From Streptomyces noursei ATCC 11455 (GTDB lineage: Bacteria; Actinomycetota; Actinomycetes; Streptomycetales; Streptomycetaceae): DNA of 64,000 nt. Below are positions 22,859 to 28,549 of this stretch, piece after piece. A program made the translations under genes and the position numbers. The stretch lies in the NCBI RefSeq assembly GCF_001704275.1, contig NZ_CP011533.1, forward strand, positions 8,184,001 through 8,248,000, read 5' to 3'. The notes beneath the pieces were generated by a model. That model was not told where the DNA came from and made no database searches. It saw only the letters and a list, made by a program, of their open reading frames with translations. Each line of letters starts with the position of its first letter. Within the stretch, counting starts at the first letter, position 1.

Positions 22859-23575
22859 ATGAAGCCACGGTTCGGCATTCTGGTGATGGTCTGTGTCATG
22901 GCATCGGGCGCGGTTGGTACGGGCACGGCCCAGGCTGCGTCCACGTCCACGTCCACGTCCACGTTCACGTTCACGTCTGCCCCTGCGCCGGCCTCGGTGC
23001 CGGCCCGTGCCGCTGTCCAGGCGGAGATCTTCGCCACCACCAACACCGACCAGATCACCGACCCGGCCGACCCGCGACTCAGGACGCGACTGATCCGATT
23101 CGACCGGGAGGTGCGGGACGTCATCCGCTCCCATCACGCCCGCACCGGCAACTCCCGGCTTCTGGACGGGGTGTTCTGGTCATCGGAGCTGAAGAAGGCG
23201 ACGTACGAGCGGTCGCGTGAGTTCGACGTGAACCGTGTCTCCGCCGACGGGCTGCACCACATCGCCGGTGTGCTGGCCAAGCAGTACCACCAGGAGTCGG
23301 TACTGACCTTCCGCTACCTGCCACGGACGGCAGCCGACACCAATGCGGTCGACATCGAGGCGCCGGGAATCGACGCCCGACGCCTCCACGACGCGCTGGT
23401 GGCGGATCCGGCCGCCCGCGACCGGCTGGGCGGCGGCTCCGTCACCACCGGCGGACGGCTGGTCCTGATCGCCCCGCTCGACGACCTCCCCCTGGCCCGG
23501 AAGTTCGTCACCGGGCTCGGCGTCGACTGGGCGACGGCACGGGTGAGGTACGGGGCGGAGGAGTTCGTGAGCTAG
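22859..23575 (+). CDS. Secreted protein of unknown function with Ser-Thr repeat
   Basis: 238 aa from ATG at 22859. Signal peptide to about residue 27 (GTAQA-A), then a Thr/Ser run encoded by six tandem hexamers, an Ala/Pro linker, and a mature domain of about 190 residues (IFATTNTDQITDPADPRLRTRL...DGVFWSSELKKATYERSREFDV...). Family not recognised. Its TAG stop lies in the CTAG target site of the adjacent IS element, so the insertion sits directly behind the gene and leaves it intact. Confidence 0.7.
   Translation: MKPRFGILVMVCVMASGAVGTGTAQAASTSTSTSTFTFTSAPAPASVPARAAVQAEIFATTNTDQITDPADPRLRTRLIRFDREVRDVIRSHHARTGNSRLLDGVFWSSELKKATYERSREFDVNRVSADGLHHIAGVLAKQYHQESVLTFRYLPRTAADTNAVDIEAPGIDARRLHDALVADPAARDRLGGGSVTTGGRLVLIAPLDDLPLARKFVTGLGVDWATARVRYGAEEFVS
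22940..22975 (+). repeat. Hexanucleotide tandem repeat in coding sequence
   Basis: Four TCCACG units followed by two TTCACG units, in frame, encoding alternating Ser/Thr and Phe/Thr just after the signal peptide. Unit changes keep the frame. Confidence 0.85.
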
Positions 23576-24525
23576 GTGTATTGCCCTGTGAGGTTGGGGA
23601 CGCGGCTGGCGGGTGGTTGGCCTGCGAGTGCGGTGTGTCCGCGGTGGTGATTGTAGGTGTGTAGCCATTGTGGGAAGGCTTCGCGTCGTTCGGTTTCCGA
23701 GCGGTAGGGGCGGGCGTAGGCCCATTCGTCGAGCAGGGTGCGGTTGAGGCGTTCGACTTTGCCGTTGGTCTGGGGTCGGTAGGGCCGGGTGCGCTTGTGG
23801 GTGATCCCGGCCGCTGCCAGCGCGTCCCGCCAGTCGTGTGAGCGGTAGCAGGAGCCGTTGTCGGTCAGGACCCGCTCGACGGTGATCCCTGCCTGGGTGA
23901 AGAACGCCTGGGCGCGTTGCCAGAAGGCGGTGGCGGTCTCTTTGCGCTCGTCGGTGTGGATCTCGCTGTAGGCGAGGCGGGAGTGGTCGTCGACGGCGGT
24001 GTGGATGTAGCTGTAGCCGGCGTTCGAGCGGGTCTTGCGGCCTGCTTGCCGGCCGAGCGCCTTGTGGCCGCCGCCGTCGGGAATGTTGCCGAGCTTCTTG
24101 ATGTCCACGTGCACCAACTCTCCTGGTCGTTCACGCTCGTAGCGGCGTATCGCACGGCCGGTGGCACGGTCGAGGTGGGACAGGCGGGCCAGACCGAAGC
24201 GGGTCAGGACGCGGTGCACGGTGGACGGCACCAGGTGGAGCAGGCCCGCGATGCGGGCGGGGCCCCACCGGCGCAGGAGGCGGACCTTGATGATCCGCCG
24301 TTCGGTGCGGGTCGGGGTTCGTCCCGGGCTGCGGTGCGGGCGGCTGGAGTGGTCGGCCATGCCCGCCTGGCCGTGCTCGCGGTAGCGGTCTGCCCATCGC
24401 TGGGCCGTGGTCGGGGAGACCTGGAAACGTTCGGCTGCTCTGCGCAGGGGCCAGCCGTCCTCGACCACACAGCGGGCCAGGCGCAGGCGTCCGGTCTCGG
24501 TCAGGGGTGCATTACGGTGGGGCAT
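23572..24525 (-). CDS. IS481-type DDE transposase
   Basis: 317 aa from ATG at 24525 (AAAGG five bases upstream). N-terminal HTH: RLRLARCVVEDGWPLRRAAERFQVSPTTAQRWADRY. DDE core: first Asp in ELVHVDIKKLG, second in VERVLTDNGSCYRS, Glu in NGKVERLNRTLLDEWAYARPY. Full-length and apparently functional. The reading frame runs out through the left inverted repeat: the last sense codon uses one IS base and the TAG stop is entirely in the flanking CTAG. Confidence 0.92.
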   Translation of the reverse strand: MPHRNAPLTETGRLRLARCVVEDGWPLRRAAERFQVSPTTAQRWADRYREHGQAGMADHSSRPHRSPGRTPTRTERRIIKVRLLRRWGPARIAGLLHLVPSTVHRVLTRFGLARLSHLDRATGRAIRRYERERPGELVHVDIKKLGNIPDGGGHKALGRQAGRKTRSNAGYSYIHTAVDDHSRLAYSEIHTDERKETATAFWQRAQAFFTQAGITVERVLTDNGSCYRSHDWRDALAAAGITHKRTRPYRPQTNGKVERLNRTLLDEWAYARPYRSETERREAFPQWLHTYNHHRGHTALAGQPPASRVPNLTGQYT

Positions 24526-24645
24526 GAGGGCCTTTCTGTCGGTGTAGACGTCGCAATCCACACCGAACCGGAAGGCCCTCACCCGTTCAAGATCCCCCAG
24601 CCGAGACCTGGCTCACCCGTCCACAACCTCCCCGGACAGAACAGC
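23577..24645 (-). mobile_element. IS481-family insertion sequence
   Basis: About 1.07 kb. Terminal inverted repeats: 23577-23604 (begins TGTATTGCC) and 24616-24643 read inward (begins TGTTCTGTCC), about 21 of 28 matching with a shared GAGGTTG core. CTAGG flanks both sides (23572-23576, 24646-24650), the likely target duplication. The right edge could be 24643 or 24645. One complete transposase gene inside. Confidence 0.82.
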
Positions 24646-24735: not shown

Positions 24736-25314
24736 TCACCAGATGCCGGGGACGAGCCTGCGGGTCCGGGCGGCGTAGGACCTGTACTCCTCGCCCAGGG
24801 CGTCGAGCAGCATCCGCTCCTCGACGTGGATGCGGTACCCCACCGGGATCAGAGCGCACGCGGTGAGCACCAGCGCGGAGGCGACGTTGTCGGTGCGGAG
24901 TGCGAGAACCAGGCCGGCGATCAGGATGCCGGTGTAGGCGGGGTGTCGTACCCAGCGGTACGGTCCCGAGCTGACGACCCGGTGGCCGTGTTGGATGTGC
25001 ACGGTGCCGCGGAAGAAGCGGCCCAGCGTGACGATGGCCCACAGGCGGAGGCCCACCGCGGCCCAGGCCACCAGAAGCACGGTGACTTCCAGGGCCGGCG
25101 CGTCCGTGGAGTAGGACAGGCCGGGCAACGCGTGCCGGAGCGGCGCCGCCAGCGCGATTCCGCCGCCGATCAGCACCGTGAAGATCAGCAGGCTGAGCCA
25201 CTCGGTGCGCTCGGTTCGCGCACTGCGGGTCCGTTGCCGGATCTGGAGCAGGATCTCGGCCGCCGCCCAGACCCAGAGAGTGAGGGTGAGTGCGGTGTTG
25301 ATGACGTGGTGCAT
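24736..25314 (-). CDS. Isoprenylcysteine carboxyl methyltransferase (ICMT/PEMT)-fold membrane protein
   Basis: 192 aa from ATG at 25314, with GGAGG eight bases upstream. Four to five membrane segments, then the SAM-binding end typical of the family: VVSSGPYRWVRHPAYTGILIAGLVLAL and RIHVEERMLLDALGEEYRSYAARTRRLVPGIW. The family methylates carboxyl groups of membrane-embedded prenyl-Cys proteins or small lipophilic substrates; the bacterial substrates are mostly unknown. It is divergent from the double-glycine peptide gene at 25755. Confidence 0.85.
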   Translation of the reverse strand: MHHVINTALTLTLWVWAAAEILLQIRQRTRSARTERTEWLSLLIFTVLIGGGIALAAPLRHALPGLSYSTDAPALEVTVLLVAWAAVGLRLWAIVTLGRFFRGTVHIQHGHRVVSSGPYRWVRHPAYTGILIAGLVLALRTDNVASALVLTACALIPVGYRIHVEERMLLDALGEEYRSYAARTRRLVPGIW

Positions 25315-25754
25315 CAGGGCACCTCCCGGCCGTCCAGGATCCCGTACCTCGCCACGGGATCGTGCGATGTCACCATCGCACCCGGAGCGGGTGGAGCGGC
25401 TCAACTCATGGGTGGAGAGCGGGTGGAGAGCCCCCCGCATACCGTCCCGGGCGCCGGTTTCTTCGTCCTTTATTCCCCCGAAGCGGTCCCCGTCGGGCGC
25501 GATCAGGGGGGTACCCGAGAGTAGCGGGACACGGCAGTCGTGCCCTGATGCTGTCGACCAATCCTGGGCCCTGTGTGAATTCTGCCTTCCGTTTAAAAAC
25601 CTGGTGTGTGCGGTGAGTGAAGGGTGTGCCGTTTCGTTCTTCTCGACCCGCGCGAGCGTGCAATCTAAAGCATGGCGGGAGTCGTTCAAGGGGCTCCCGC
25701 TGCAGTGCGCCACGCATTGCGACTCACTTCTAGAGAAAAAGGACGCTCATCATC
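25315..25754. other. 440-bp spacer upstream of the double-glycine peptide
   Basis: No convincing gene. It includes AT-richer patches (TTTAAAAACC near 25590; ATCTAAAGC near 25662) that could be promoter elements, and AAAAAGGA about 11 bases before the peptide ATG. A long leftward frame extends upstream of the ICMT gene here but is not protein-like. Confidence 0.4.
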
Positions 25755-25964
25755 ATGAGCAACACCTCCGGCATTGAGACCCGCGAGATAGCCGACGACG
25801 ACCTCGACAACGTCGCGGGTGGTCTCTCCGTCAGCGGCTCCCTGAATGGCCTGACCGCCACGTTCGCCCCGGGCCCGAATGGCCTGCCCATCCTGACCGG
25901 CGGCTCCGTGAAGTCCCTCAGCATCACTGTCTCGGACATCCCCCTGGGCCCGATCGGTCACTGA
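25755..25964 (+). CDS. Small peptide with double-glycine-type leader (putative RiPP precursor)
   Basis: 69 aa. Residues 1-23 look like a leader: acidic, with EIADDDLDNVAGG ending in Gly22-Gly23, the pattern cut by peptidase-containing exporters (and found in precursors annotated as type A2 lantipeptides). The remaining 46 residues have seven Ser, four Thr, no Cys, no Trp and no Tyr, and are rich in Gly/Pro/Leu (GPNGLPILTGG, SDIPLGPIGH). Without Cys it cannot form ordinary lanthionines. No synthetase, protease or exporter is adjacent. The gene has a ribosome site upstream and a hairpin 100 bp downstream. Family call is inference. Confidence 0.7.
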   Translation: MSNTSGIETREIADDDLDNVAGGLSVSGSLNGLTATFAPGPNGLPILTGGSVKSLSITVSDIPLGPIGH

Positions 25965-26063
25965 GATACCACCCGCGGCTGAGACGCGGCTATAGCGCGG
26001 TGCTCGGCCGATGGGACCCGCAACCACCCCGGCTGGATGTGGGGTGATTCGGGGTTCTGCGTG

Positions 26064-26106
26064 ACGTCGGCCTTCAAGACCTGATGATGGTCTTGAAGGC
26101 CGACGT
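26064..26106. terminator. Perfect 18-bp hairpin between convergent genes
   Basis: ACGTCGGCCTTCAAGACC (26064-26081) pairs perfectly with 26089-26106 around a 7-base loop. It lies 100 bp after the double-glycine peptide and 90 bp after the convergent 26197-26610 gene. The rest of 25965-26196 shows nothing. Confidence 0.75.
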
Positions 26107-26196
26107 TGTCATATGGGGTGGTGGTTGTTGACGGGTCTGTGCCCCTGGTGGGGCGGGCGCGTCGGGCCCGTGCTCCGCAGCCCGCCCCTGAGGCTC

Positions 26197-26610
26197 CTAC
26201 CCCCTCTCGGCCTCGAATCTCGCGTACAGATCGCGGTCGCGCCACGAATCGGAGAACGCTTCCAGCATCGCCTCGTAGAGTCGAAGATGACTGACGTCCC
26301 TCAAGGGCGCGGAGATGCGGCGGGAAATGGCTTCCTCCACCGCGGGCCACCGCAACTCGTGCATGACGAAGGAGACCAGTTCGACGACGCCTTCCCGCAT
26401 CGTATCGATCAACGAGACGAGCTCTGCCTCGAATTGCGGCTGCCAGTCGGGGTTACTTCGCAGTAACTCAAGCGCGCGCTCCAGATTCGCTTCAAGAGCC
26501 TCGACTCCGCATGAACGTTCGGCGGAATCCAGGATATCTTGAACGATGCTCTGAAAGCGTGTGAGGGGATCAGCAGTCGGGCTTTCCCCAGGCGGCGTTG
26601 TACTTCCCAT
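26197..26610 (-). CDS. Small helical protein overlapping the toxin-like gene (candidate immunity protein)
   Basis: 137 aa from ATG at 26610, overlapping the previous gene's 3' end by 41 bp in another frame. Largely alpha-helical and acidic: RFQSIVQDILDSAERSCGVEALEANLERALELLRSN, then LVSLIDTMREGVVELVSFVMHELRWPAVEEAI. No signal peptide or named family recognised. The overlap implies translational coupling to the membrane protein with the toxin-like tail; a small gene in that place often encodes immunity, but this is inference. Confidence 0.6.
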   Translation of the reverse strand: MGSTTPPGESPTADPLTRFQSIVQDILDSAERSCGVEALEANLERALELLRSNPDWQPQFEAELVSLIDTMREGVVELVSFVMHELRWPAVEEAISRRISAPLRDVSHLRLYEAMLEAFSDSWRDRDLYARFEAERG

Positions 26611-28549
26611 CCGCATTGAGTCCGTTTCTGTTGAATGCGTCGACGGCCGCCTTCTGCGCGCGTGCCCCGTAAGGCCGGTAGTGTCCGGACTTGTTGTCGA
26701 GATAGACGACCTGGCCGCCCTTGGTCTTGAACTCGCCGGCGGCCAGCACCGGGTTGCCACGGGCGAGGTTGATATGCCCTGCCGTTCTCTTGCCGATGAC
26801 GAGATCGCCGTTCTCCAGTACCACGTAGAGGTAGTTTCCGGATCGCTCCAGCGCGGTTTTCGGCGGAATCGGTTTGAACCAGTCGGGCTTGTCCTCGGGA
26901 ATCAGGTTCGAGAAGGAGCCCGGGTCGTCGTCGCCGTCCTGGGCGAGGGTCCGTGCCGTGCCCGCCTGTGCGTGGTACGCGTGGAATCCGCCGGTCGAGA
27001 GGCTGGTGCTGGGGCGGAAGCCGTTGGACTTGCTGCAGCCCGTGTTGTCGCGTTCCCGCTTCACGCCGTCGACGAGCTTCTGGACCTCGACGGTGGCCAG
27101 TGCTCGGGCGGTGATCAGCCATTGGGCGTTGTAGGGGATGCGGTACTGGACCGGCCGGCCGCCGTTCGCGCGGGAACGGGCCTGGGCATCGGCCTTCTTC
27201 TGGGCCTCGACCGACGCGAAGACCGGGCCGGCGCCCGGATCGGAGCACGACAGGTTGCCGGAGACGGAGGTGCCGGCGACGGCGAACGAGCTCGGCGAGC
27301 TGGTGCAGCGGCCGGCGGACCTGCCGTCGATGCTGAAGGAGGCGGTCATGACGGCGGTGACCTGGCCGCCCGTGAGGCGGCTCTTCGCGCTGGTGGTGAT
27401 CTGGCCGACGAAGCCGCTGTTGGCGGTGCACCCGCCCGAGCTGCACTTCACGGTTCCGGAGCCGTTGAGGGCCAGGGATATGCCACTGTCGGTGGCGTCG
27501 CTGAGCTCCTTGGTCTGCTTCTCCAGGTTGCTGAACATCGGCTCGACGGCATCGCCGGTGACCGGGGTCAGGTCCATGCCCTGGGAGTCGCTCCCCGCGA
27601 GCGGGCCTTCGGTGACCGTCGGGGTCCGCGGCGGCTCCTCGTGGGAATCCCGCGCCGCCATCGGCCTCATCGCCGCCGAGAGTGGTCGCGTCCCCTCGGT
27701 GGAGCCGCCGGTCGACCGCGACGGCCCGTAGGGCTCCAGGCGCAGCACGCGGTACGGCTTCTGTGCGGTGATGAGCAGTCGGCCCGCCGGCGTGTCCGCC
27801 GCGAGGGCCGCCGTGCCGTTCACCGTGGCGGGCCGCTGCTGGATCGATGCGCCGGGCGACGGTGCGTCGGCCATGTCGTCCAGGAGCCCGGAGAGCAGCA
27901 TCGCCAGCACGGCCGGCGACGGTGTGCGCTTGACGACGTCGTCAGCCGAACCGGAACTGCCGTCCCCGGCGGCCCATTTGCCGGCGTCCGTGGCGCCGGA
28001 CGAGTCCTGTCTGCGGGTGAAGGTCTTGCCGCCCACGTGCAGGATCGCGCGGTCGGGCCGGCTGCCGTAGCCCGTGGTGCCGTAGCGACTGCCGGAGGCG
28101 GTGACCGTGATGTCGCGTGTGCTGAGACCGGCGGAAGAGGAGTCCTTGTACTGCAGTCCGGGGGCCGCGGCCAGCACGGCCAGGGCCTGTTGGAACGGCT
28201 CCAGGTTCTGCTTGGCCGCCGGCTGGCGCGAGCCGGAGGTGGTGTTCCAGAGCAGTACTCCGGCCACCAGCGCCAGGACCAGCGCTCCGACCGAGCCGAA
28301 GAGGAGGAAACGCCCGCGCCGCCCCGACGGGAGCAGCCGCTGCGCCGGGCCGCCGCCGGTCGCCGGTTCCGAGGCCGGGGGGCCGTAGGGGAAGCCCTGT
28401 GGAGGCACGTGCGGGGCCTGCGGTGGCAGTGGAGGCCCGAAGGTGCCGGGTGGCGGGCCGAACCGGCCGGGCTCCGGCGGCCCTTCCGGGCTTCCCGGCT
28501 GCCCCTCCTGCGGTGGCCACTGGCCGTCCTGGCGTGTCGGCTCCGTCAT
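26570..28549 (-). CDS. Membrane-anchored protein with C-terminal toxin-like domain
   Basis: 659 aa from ATG with AGGGGG six bases upstream. Residues 1-78 are Pro/Gly/Gln-rich and cytosolic; one membrane segment at about 82-102; the rest is extracellular. The middle carries repeated beta-like segments with four Cys (VKCSSGGCTANSG...CTSSPSS...LSCSDPG). The last 75 residues (ENGDLVIGKRTAGHINLARG.PVLAAGEFKTKGGQVVYLDNKSGHYRPYG...AVDAFNRNG) resemble C-terminal domains of polymorphic-toxin-like proteins with an SGHY.P motif. Toxicity is inferred, not shown. An 11-bp-spaced repeat box lies 313 bp upstream. Confidence 0.65.
   Translation of the reverse strand: MTEPTRQDGQWPPQEGQPGSPEGPPEPGRFGPPPGTFGPPLPPQAPHVPPQGFPYGPPASEPATGGGPAQRLLPSGRRGRFLLFGSVGALVLALVAGVLLWNTTSGSRQPAAKQNLEPFQQALAVLAAAPGLQYKDSSSAGLSTRDITVTASGSRYGTTGYGSRPDRAILHVGGKTFTRRQDSSGATDAGKWAAGDGSSGSADDVVKRTPSPAVLAMLLSGLLDDMADAPSPGASIQQRPATVNGTAALAADTPAGRLLITAQKPYRVLRLEPYGPSRSTGGSTEGTRPLSAAMRPMAARDSHEEPPRTPTVTEGPLAGSDSQGMDLTPVTGDAVEPMFSNLEKQTKELSDATDSGISLALNGSGTVKCSSGGCTANSGFVGQITTSAKSRLTGGQVTAVMTASFSIDGRSAGRCTSSPSSFAVAGTSVSGNLSCSDPGAGPVFASVEAQKKADAQARSRANGGRPVQYRIPYNAQWLITARALATVEVQKLVDGVKRERDNTGCSKSNGFRPSTSLSTGGFHAYHAQAGTARTLAQDGDDDPGSFSNLIPEDKPDWFKPIPPKTALERSGNYLYVVLENGDLVIGKRTAGHINLARGNPVLAAGEFKTKGGQVVYLDNKSGHYRPYGARAQKAAVDAFNRNGLNADGKYNAAWGKPDC

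Follow-up and report, generated by a model that had tools for sequence, protein, structure and literature searches.

The window analyzed here is a 64,000-nucleotide stretch (positions 8184001 to 8248000) of the Streptomyces noursei ATCC 11455 genome, which is a single contig of 9.82 Mb. It contains a small gene for a 69-residue peptide with a double-glycine leader (Table 1). We think it likely that this gene encodes the precursor of an unmodified, β-structured peptide that is cleaved and exported in trans by a peptidase-containing ATP-binding cassette (ABC) transporter, or PCAT, encoded about 250 kb away. The original prediction, made from the DNA letters, described a leader ending in DLDNVAGG and a 46-residue core free of Cys, Trp, and Tyr, and the sequence and its homologs both bear this out. 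The open reading frame (ORF) is more than a chance one, because it has homologs and is under purifying selection. The description of a Ser/Thr core was only moderately apt, with Ser and Thr making up 24% of it (11/46 residues). Scans of the 69-residue peptide gave no Pfam match at E ≤ 1 and no NCBIfam match over cut-off.

Table 1. Features at the peptide locus and its probable exporter. Positions count from the first nucleotide of the window, and the exporter is given in genome coordinates.
Feature	Position	Strand	Basis or remarks
Double-glycine-leader peptide gene	25755..25964	+	69 amino acids, ATG to TGA; homologs and purifying selection
Leader, residues 1-23	25755..25823	+	E(-13) I(-12) D(-8) L(-7) V(-4) G(-2) G(-1)
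Core, residues 24-69	25824..25961	+	calculated unmodified average mass 4414.0 Da; predicted four-stranded β-sheet
Ribosome site AAGGA	25739..25743	+	sequence; AAGGA at -20 to -8 in 31/31 family copies
Upstream motif TCC..TT...GTG...GTGAAG, candidate promoter or operator	25588..25622	+	near-invariant columns in 15 upstream regions
Two adjacent hairpins, upstream or leader RNA	25674..25720	+	94.7% and 97.1% of cells paired (15 sequences)
6-bp hairpin GCTCAT/ATGAGC around start codon	25745..25760	+	sequence pairing across 31 copies
Downstream hairpin, probable terminator	26063..26107	+	19 bp, -37.7 kcal/mol, z -8.7
Stretch common to copies in other neighborhoods	25547..26122	+	at most about -208 to about +376 relative to start codon
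ICMT-like methyltransferase	24736..25314	-	Pfam ICMT, 65 bits; NCBIfam equivalog, 84 bits (cut-off 160)
Transposase	23572..24582	-	Pfam rve and IS481 leucine-zipper domains
659-residue protein	26570..28549	-	no Pfam or NCBIfam match over cut-off; among related loci only in L006
NHLM-type PCAT, C39-peptidase ABC transporter	G000:C1:7956542-7958674		TIGR03796, 1011 bits (cut-off 853)
Second ABC subunit after the PCAT			TIGR03797, 878 bits (cut-off 709)

A search of the peptide's own genome with the peptide as query returned a second peptide with a similar leader at position 7955157 (E 0.0026). That precursor is followed by an HlyD protein (score 138, under its model's cut-off of 156), then by an ABC transporter with a C39 peptidase domain, and then by a second ABC subunit. 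The transporter accounts for the one C39 match (PF03412) detected in the whole genome. Its C39 domain is nearest to that of LahT (6mpz, E 1.2e-40), and the two align over the segments ECGAASLAM and FNH, which we take to be the sites of the catalytic Cys and His. The peptide had been called an orphan and its leader PCAT-like; the second description stands, as a matching PCAT with leader-sharing precursors exists in the same genome, and the first, in the sense of lacking an exporter, is not supported, this PCAT being a probable one. The exporter's own precursor matches PF04604 at 22.0 bits (cut-off 21.7) and was entered without its first two residues in the NCBIfam scan. Six more ORFs around the exporter encode a dehydrogenase, an aminotransferase, a LysR regulator, a PHP protein, a binding protein, and a DIT1/PvcA-like protein, with no known RiPP (ribosomally synthesized and posttranslationally modified peptide) enzyme among these neighbors by Pfam. 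The DIT1/PvcA-like protein (L005:17298-18686, minus strand; PF05141, 238 bits) lies about 4 kb past the second ABC gene.

By its leader, the window gene matches this exporter. Eleven of its last 16 residues agree with the leader of the exporter's own precursor. The strongest point is a blind search with a profile (A2) built from 16 exporter-adjacent precursors, none of them from the window's family. Across the whole genome at E ≤ 10, this profile found two places, namely the exporter's precursor (2.2e-28) and the window gene (9.4e-8, positions 1 to 35). Apart from exchanges among I, L, V, and M, positions -12, -7, -4, -2, and -1 are alike in 31/31 family copies, in 16/16 exporter-adjacent precursors, and in all 57 of the other unlinked precursors described below, so that the double glycine and the docking positions are kept throughout the family. 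The hydrophobic positions are those of the PCAT substrate consensus (PMC6959990), and position -8 is Asp where that consensus has Glu. In the cryo-EM work on PCAT1, the leader docks via -7 and -12, specificity resides at -4, and the cargo is not specifically recognized (PMC6959990), while LahT cleaves many noncognate leaders (PMC10885120).

The family and the exporter also occur together. Our scan of public genomes gave 31 loci, of which L036 was dropped as itself an exporter locus, leaving 30 loci in 26 genomes. The original prediction had proposed testing whether exporter genes co-occur with the peptide; neither HlyD nor exporter was matched in the DNA examined at any of the 30 loci, and the co-occurrence lies instead at the level of the genome. 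Of 27 genomes searched for the exporter, 26 remained after L036 was dropped; it scored over cut-off in 24 of these, the other two being one with a contig-edge fragment (623 bits) and a metagenome-assembled genome (MAG). C39 matches were likewise found in 24/26, exactly one in 20 genomes and more than one in four. For background we surveyed 295 Streptomyces genomes drawn evenly from a larger group, scoring up to 20 family candidates and three exporter candidates per genome, so that the resulting counts (9/295, 211/295, and 218/295) are lower bounds. The exporter was over cut-off in at least 218/295 genomes, against which its frequency in the family genomes gives a Fisher p of 0.024, or 0.005 with the fragment counted. 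At least 9/295 genomes have a strong match to the window's family over its full length. Weaker matches confined to the leader, where they were assigned loci, adjoin the exporter in 21/21 cases (L047 to L067), each with HlyD and the beginning of the C39 exporter.

Peptides bearing the A2 leader were found in 58/60 exporter-positive but only 4/77 exporter-negative Streptomyces genomes. The 60 were the lowest numbered (G002 to G088), the peptide result having played no part in their choice, and exporter-negative means no exporter match over the curated cut-off in the survey. Three of the four exporter-negative, peptide-positive genomes have HlyD beside the peptide, two of these also the exporter start, so that their systems seem to have been split or to have diverged; in G180, which is among these three, two more A2 rows occur, both interrupted by a stop within the matched part. 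G001, the fourth genome, has a completeness of 79% and shares an identical locus with the MAG.

The peptide is conserved well beyond its leader. A single-sequence search gave 50 homologs (weakest E 7.1e-19), and the organism-labeled ones shown are from Streptomyces. Profile A1, made of the window peptide and 32 of these homologs (33 rows), gave 77 matches at E ≤ 0.001. The original prediction had asked whether the leader is more conserved than the core. The leader is the more constrained part, because its median pairwise ratio of nonsynonymous to synonymous substitution (dN/dS) is about half that of the core (about 0.24 versus 0.38 to 0.48; 23 ungapped genes). The core is nonetheless far from variable and is nearly as conserved as the leader, with a mean column consensus of 0.81 for the whole core and 0.84 for residues 24 to 66 against 0.87 for the leader. 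A core conserved and annotated as a structural domain had been named as evidence against a precursor; the conservation is there, yet neither Pfam nor NCBIfam annotates such a domain. In four genomes two family members lie at separate places (L011/L012, L013/L016, L019/L035, and L020/L034).

AlphaFold2 run on profile A1 predicted strands at residues 20 to 31, 34 to 39, 45 to 51, and 54 to 66, with a mean predicted local distance difference test score (pLDDT) of 79, residue blocks in 31 to 60 averaging 93 to 96, and a predicted template modeling score (pTM) of 0.40. At several positions V, I, and L replace one another, a pattern like that of a buried sheet, but a formal test of amphipathicity was negative.

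The gene occurs in varied surroundings. Flanking DNA sorts the 31 copies, window included, into about 20 neighborhoods; the groups were assigned by hand, and some short, noncollinear DNA matches between groups were seen. When 3.2 kb per locus was compared between neighborhoods, similarity ended just outside the gene, and this, with the upstream motif near-invariant in 15 copies, means that the gene behaves as a self-contained unit. The motif has one match in its own genome at ≤1 mismatch, and a reversed-pattern control has none. Neither a conserved partner gene nor a linked immunity gene was found across the roughly 20 neighborhoods. In the window itself, no known maturation enzyme was found among the scanned neighbors of the peptide gene (Pfam, NCBIfam), as originally reported. 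The transposase gave no tblastn match in loci L006 to L036, and the other window neighbors tested are present in L006 at most.

The separate ribosome site noted at first was confirmed (Table 1). In the 15 sequences compared, four pairs of the two adjacent hairpins upstream of it have changed at both positions, and two relatives folded singly give differing structures; with this modest support, the hairpins are possibly a cis-regulatory RNA. The hairpin around the start codon can form all six pairs in 13/31 copies and at least five in 28/31, and is energetically weak in some. The Ser2 codon is AGC in 31/31 copies, while TCC is the commonest Ser codon later in these genes. Behind the gene, the 18-bp terminator hairpin of the original prediction is real as a hairpin, one base pair longer, but it has no T-run behind it and was not listed by a terminator scan. 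Many relatives have a comparable hairpin, and none was found within 250 bases behind 9/31 copies (L024 has few downstream bases).

Three other accounts were weighed against that of an unmodified, exported peptide. The gene could encode a true RiPP precursor, with Ser/Thr or other core residues altered before export by an enzyme encoded elsewhere, in the way that ProcM modifies prochlorosin precursors. Some homologs do bear the database name "Type A2 lantipeptide," and Haft and colleagues described NHLP and N11P precursors encoded far from the genes for their modification and export (PMC2887384). However, thioether rings would need a Cys that the core lacks, the core is predicted to fold unmodified, no gene is common to the neighborhoods, and no known RiPP enzyme was seen among the Pfam-scanned neighbors of peptide or exporter, a genome-wide enzyme search not having been made. 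We consider this account unlikely. A new RiPP precursor and a secreted unmodified peptide had both been offered originally; the latter is the better option. The family does not display the pattern of a conserved leader followed by a variable RiPP core. Less probable still is that the gene encodes a remnant, or a small protein of the cytoplasm, whose exporter-type N terminus was inherited and which is not exported. The gene does lie away from the exporter, and its core begins like those of exporter-adjacent peptides in another genus of the same family (L128 to L131), which start GGLSVSGG, GGVSVSGG, or GGISISGG; by sequence, this suggests that the scattered gene descended from an exporter-adjacent one. 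Against a loss of export stand the low dN/dS of the leader, the invariance of its docking positions, and the presence of the exporter in nearly all family genomes.

Maturation by the neighboring ICMT-like methyltransferase is disfavored and seems very improbable. The two genes are close together here and in S. noursei A-2-1, the nearest named locus, where the peptide is identical and long flanking pieces are 93 to 98% identical. The methyltransferase of the window was matched at only 1/30 related loci, however, with no methyltransferase match in the DNA examined at the other 29 (five loci were covered by less than 5 kb of upstream DNA), and the core offers no Cys for ICMT-type carboxyl methylation. 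The proposed co-occurrence is not supported, and of the description as a divergent ICMT-fold enzyme, the fold is supported by Pfam, while the NCBIfam equivalog score falls short of its cut-off.

The shared leader, the single C39 domain detected in the genome, the co-occurrence across genomes, the conservation, the self-contained, unlinked gene unit, and the lack of a detected conserved partner are results of comparison; cleavage, export, the unmodified state, and the fold of the core are inferred. The 23-residue leader would dock on the C39 peptidase domain of the NHLM-type PCAT, which would cut after the double glycine (Gly23), and the transporter would release the unmodified 46-residue peptide, which would fold outside the cell as a small β-sheet. 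The window peptide would then be one of several unlinked cargo families using this exporter type besides the adjacent "house" precursor.

Other Streptomyces genomes also hold unlinked precursors. Among the 60 exporter-positive genomes, 21 carry two or more precursors that lie on separate contigs or are separated by 0.5 Mb or more, so that at most one of them can lie beside a given exporter. To look at such loci, we used 51 genomes chosen for at least two family-search hits, and hence enriched, leaving out the S. noursei genome and G175, G194, G265, and G289. These gave 113 rows, 51 being the best per genome; from the remaining 62 we retrieved 57, omitting three members of the window's family and two rows with an internal stop. 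All 57 loci encode peptides of 63 to 81 residues (starts picked by script) with the same kind of double-glycine leader and other cores, and no HlyD or exporter match was found in the 2 kb examined at any of them. The window gene is therefore one family of a wider set. Among the 57 cores there are two large, loose groups of 26 and 22 members, a group of four, and five that stand alone; the window's core joins none of these, and Cys occurs in 10 of the 57. L170 has an HGHHGHHGHH stretch and L183 has GLPGLPGLP repeats.

With similar scattered peptides in many of the Streptomyces sampled, one exporter probably ships a varied set. A broader proposal falls just short of an even chance in our estimate: a Streptomyces "cargo port" in which one PCAT, present in about three-quarters of the species sampled, secretes a house peptide and a strain-specific set of unlinked, self-contained, mostly Cys-free peptides recruited through the same leader, the window core being a new unmodified, self-folding, four-stranded β microprotein and the promoter-gene-terminator units being what moves. 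If so, strains could change their secreted peptide repertoire without moving the exporter. Genome mining beside exporters would class the window gene as a stray hypothetical, whereas a single rule open to testing, namely a common leader together with one C39 domain, places it and the 57 unlinked peptides on one secretion route of soil bacteria that produce antibiotics. The rule also predicts which masses should be sought in culture media. Where one would expect cores that vary and are modified, there would be a peptide that is conserved, apparently folded, and probably unmodified. As to role, the most that can safely be said is that it would be an accessory extracellular peptide. That it acts on neighboring hyphae or competitors is a first guess, and as guesswork we would sooner bet against it than for it. 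A classic self-toxic bacteriocin is doubtful because the expected linked immunity was not seen in the roughly 20 neighborhoods, and a general developmental role does not fit a family present in about 9/295 genomes.

Among known systems, prochlorosin precursors share a leader, are encoded by scattered genes, and yield lanthionine peptides with Cys. There, many precursors serve one modification enzyme (29 ProcAs, one LanM; PMC3951391), whereas the window core lacks Cys and no synthetase was found nearby. The principle of distant precursors is already known, since such cases are described for NHLP and N11P (PMC2887384) and in a LanT survey noting orphan transporters whose peptides may be encoded elsewhere (PMC3951391). 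A genome paper also reports a Streptomyces "type A2 lantipeptide" gene clustered with a Peptidase_C39 gene (PMC13047742). We found no paper on this Streptomyces family, its scattered cargo, or five leader motif strings, most subscription journals lying outside the search. The NHLP and N11P systems, with their TIGR03794/03796/03797 cassette, resemble the window peptide in exporter type and in far-off precursors (PMC2887384). Their leaders, however, average 70 to 83 residues against 23 here, the window leader has no nitrile-hydratase or Nif11 match, and no enzyme for thiazole/oxazole-modified microcins (TOMM) or lanthipeptides (Lan) was seen among the scanned neighbors of peptide or exporter. 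The three-gene export cassette type is also found in cyanobacterial bacteriocin clusters (PMC3140520). Residues 1 to 31 of the window peptide weakly resemble the CTB family bacteriocin (NF038167; E 0.011, 15.9 bits against a cut-off of 32), which leaves it outside that family. Nor does it look like a class II lanthipeptide or type A lantibiotic of the PF04604 kind, having no Pfam match, no NCBIfam match that reaches its cut-off, no core Cys, and no lanthionine synthetase among the scanned neighbors. Another likeness is to LahT and PCAT1 substrates, which have hydrophobic residues at -12, -7, and -4 and a double glycine, as does the window leader (PMC6959990, PMC10885120). In contrast to them, the window precursor is encoded far from the transporter, and its core is conserved and predicted to be folded. 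With this leader pattern, and with a C39 exporter in the genome that has a leader-sharing precursor beside it, the window peptide has the marks of a PCAT double-glycine substrate.
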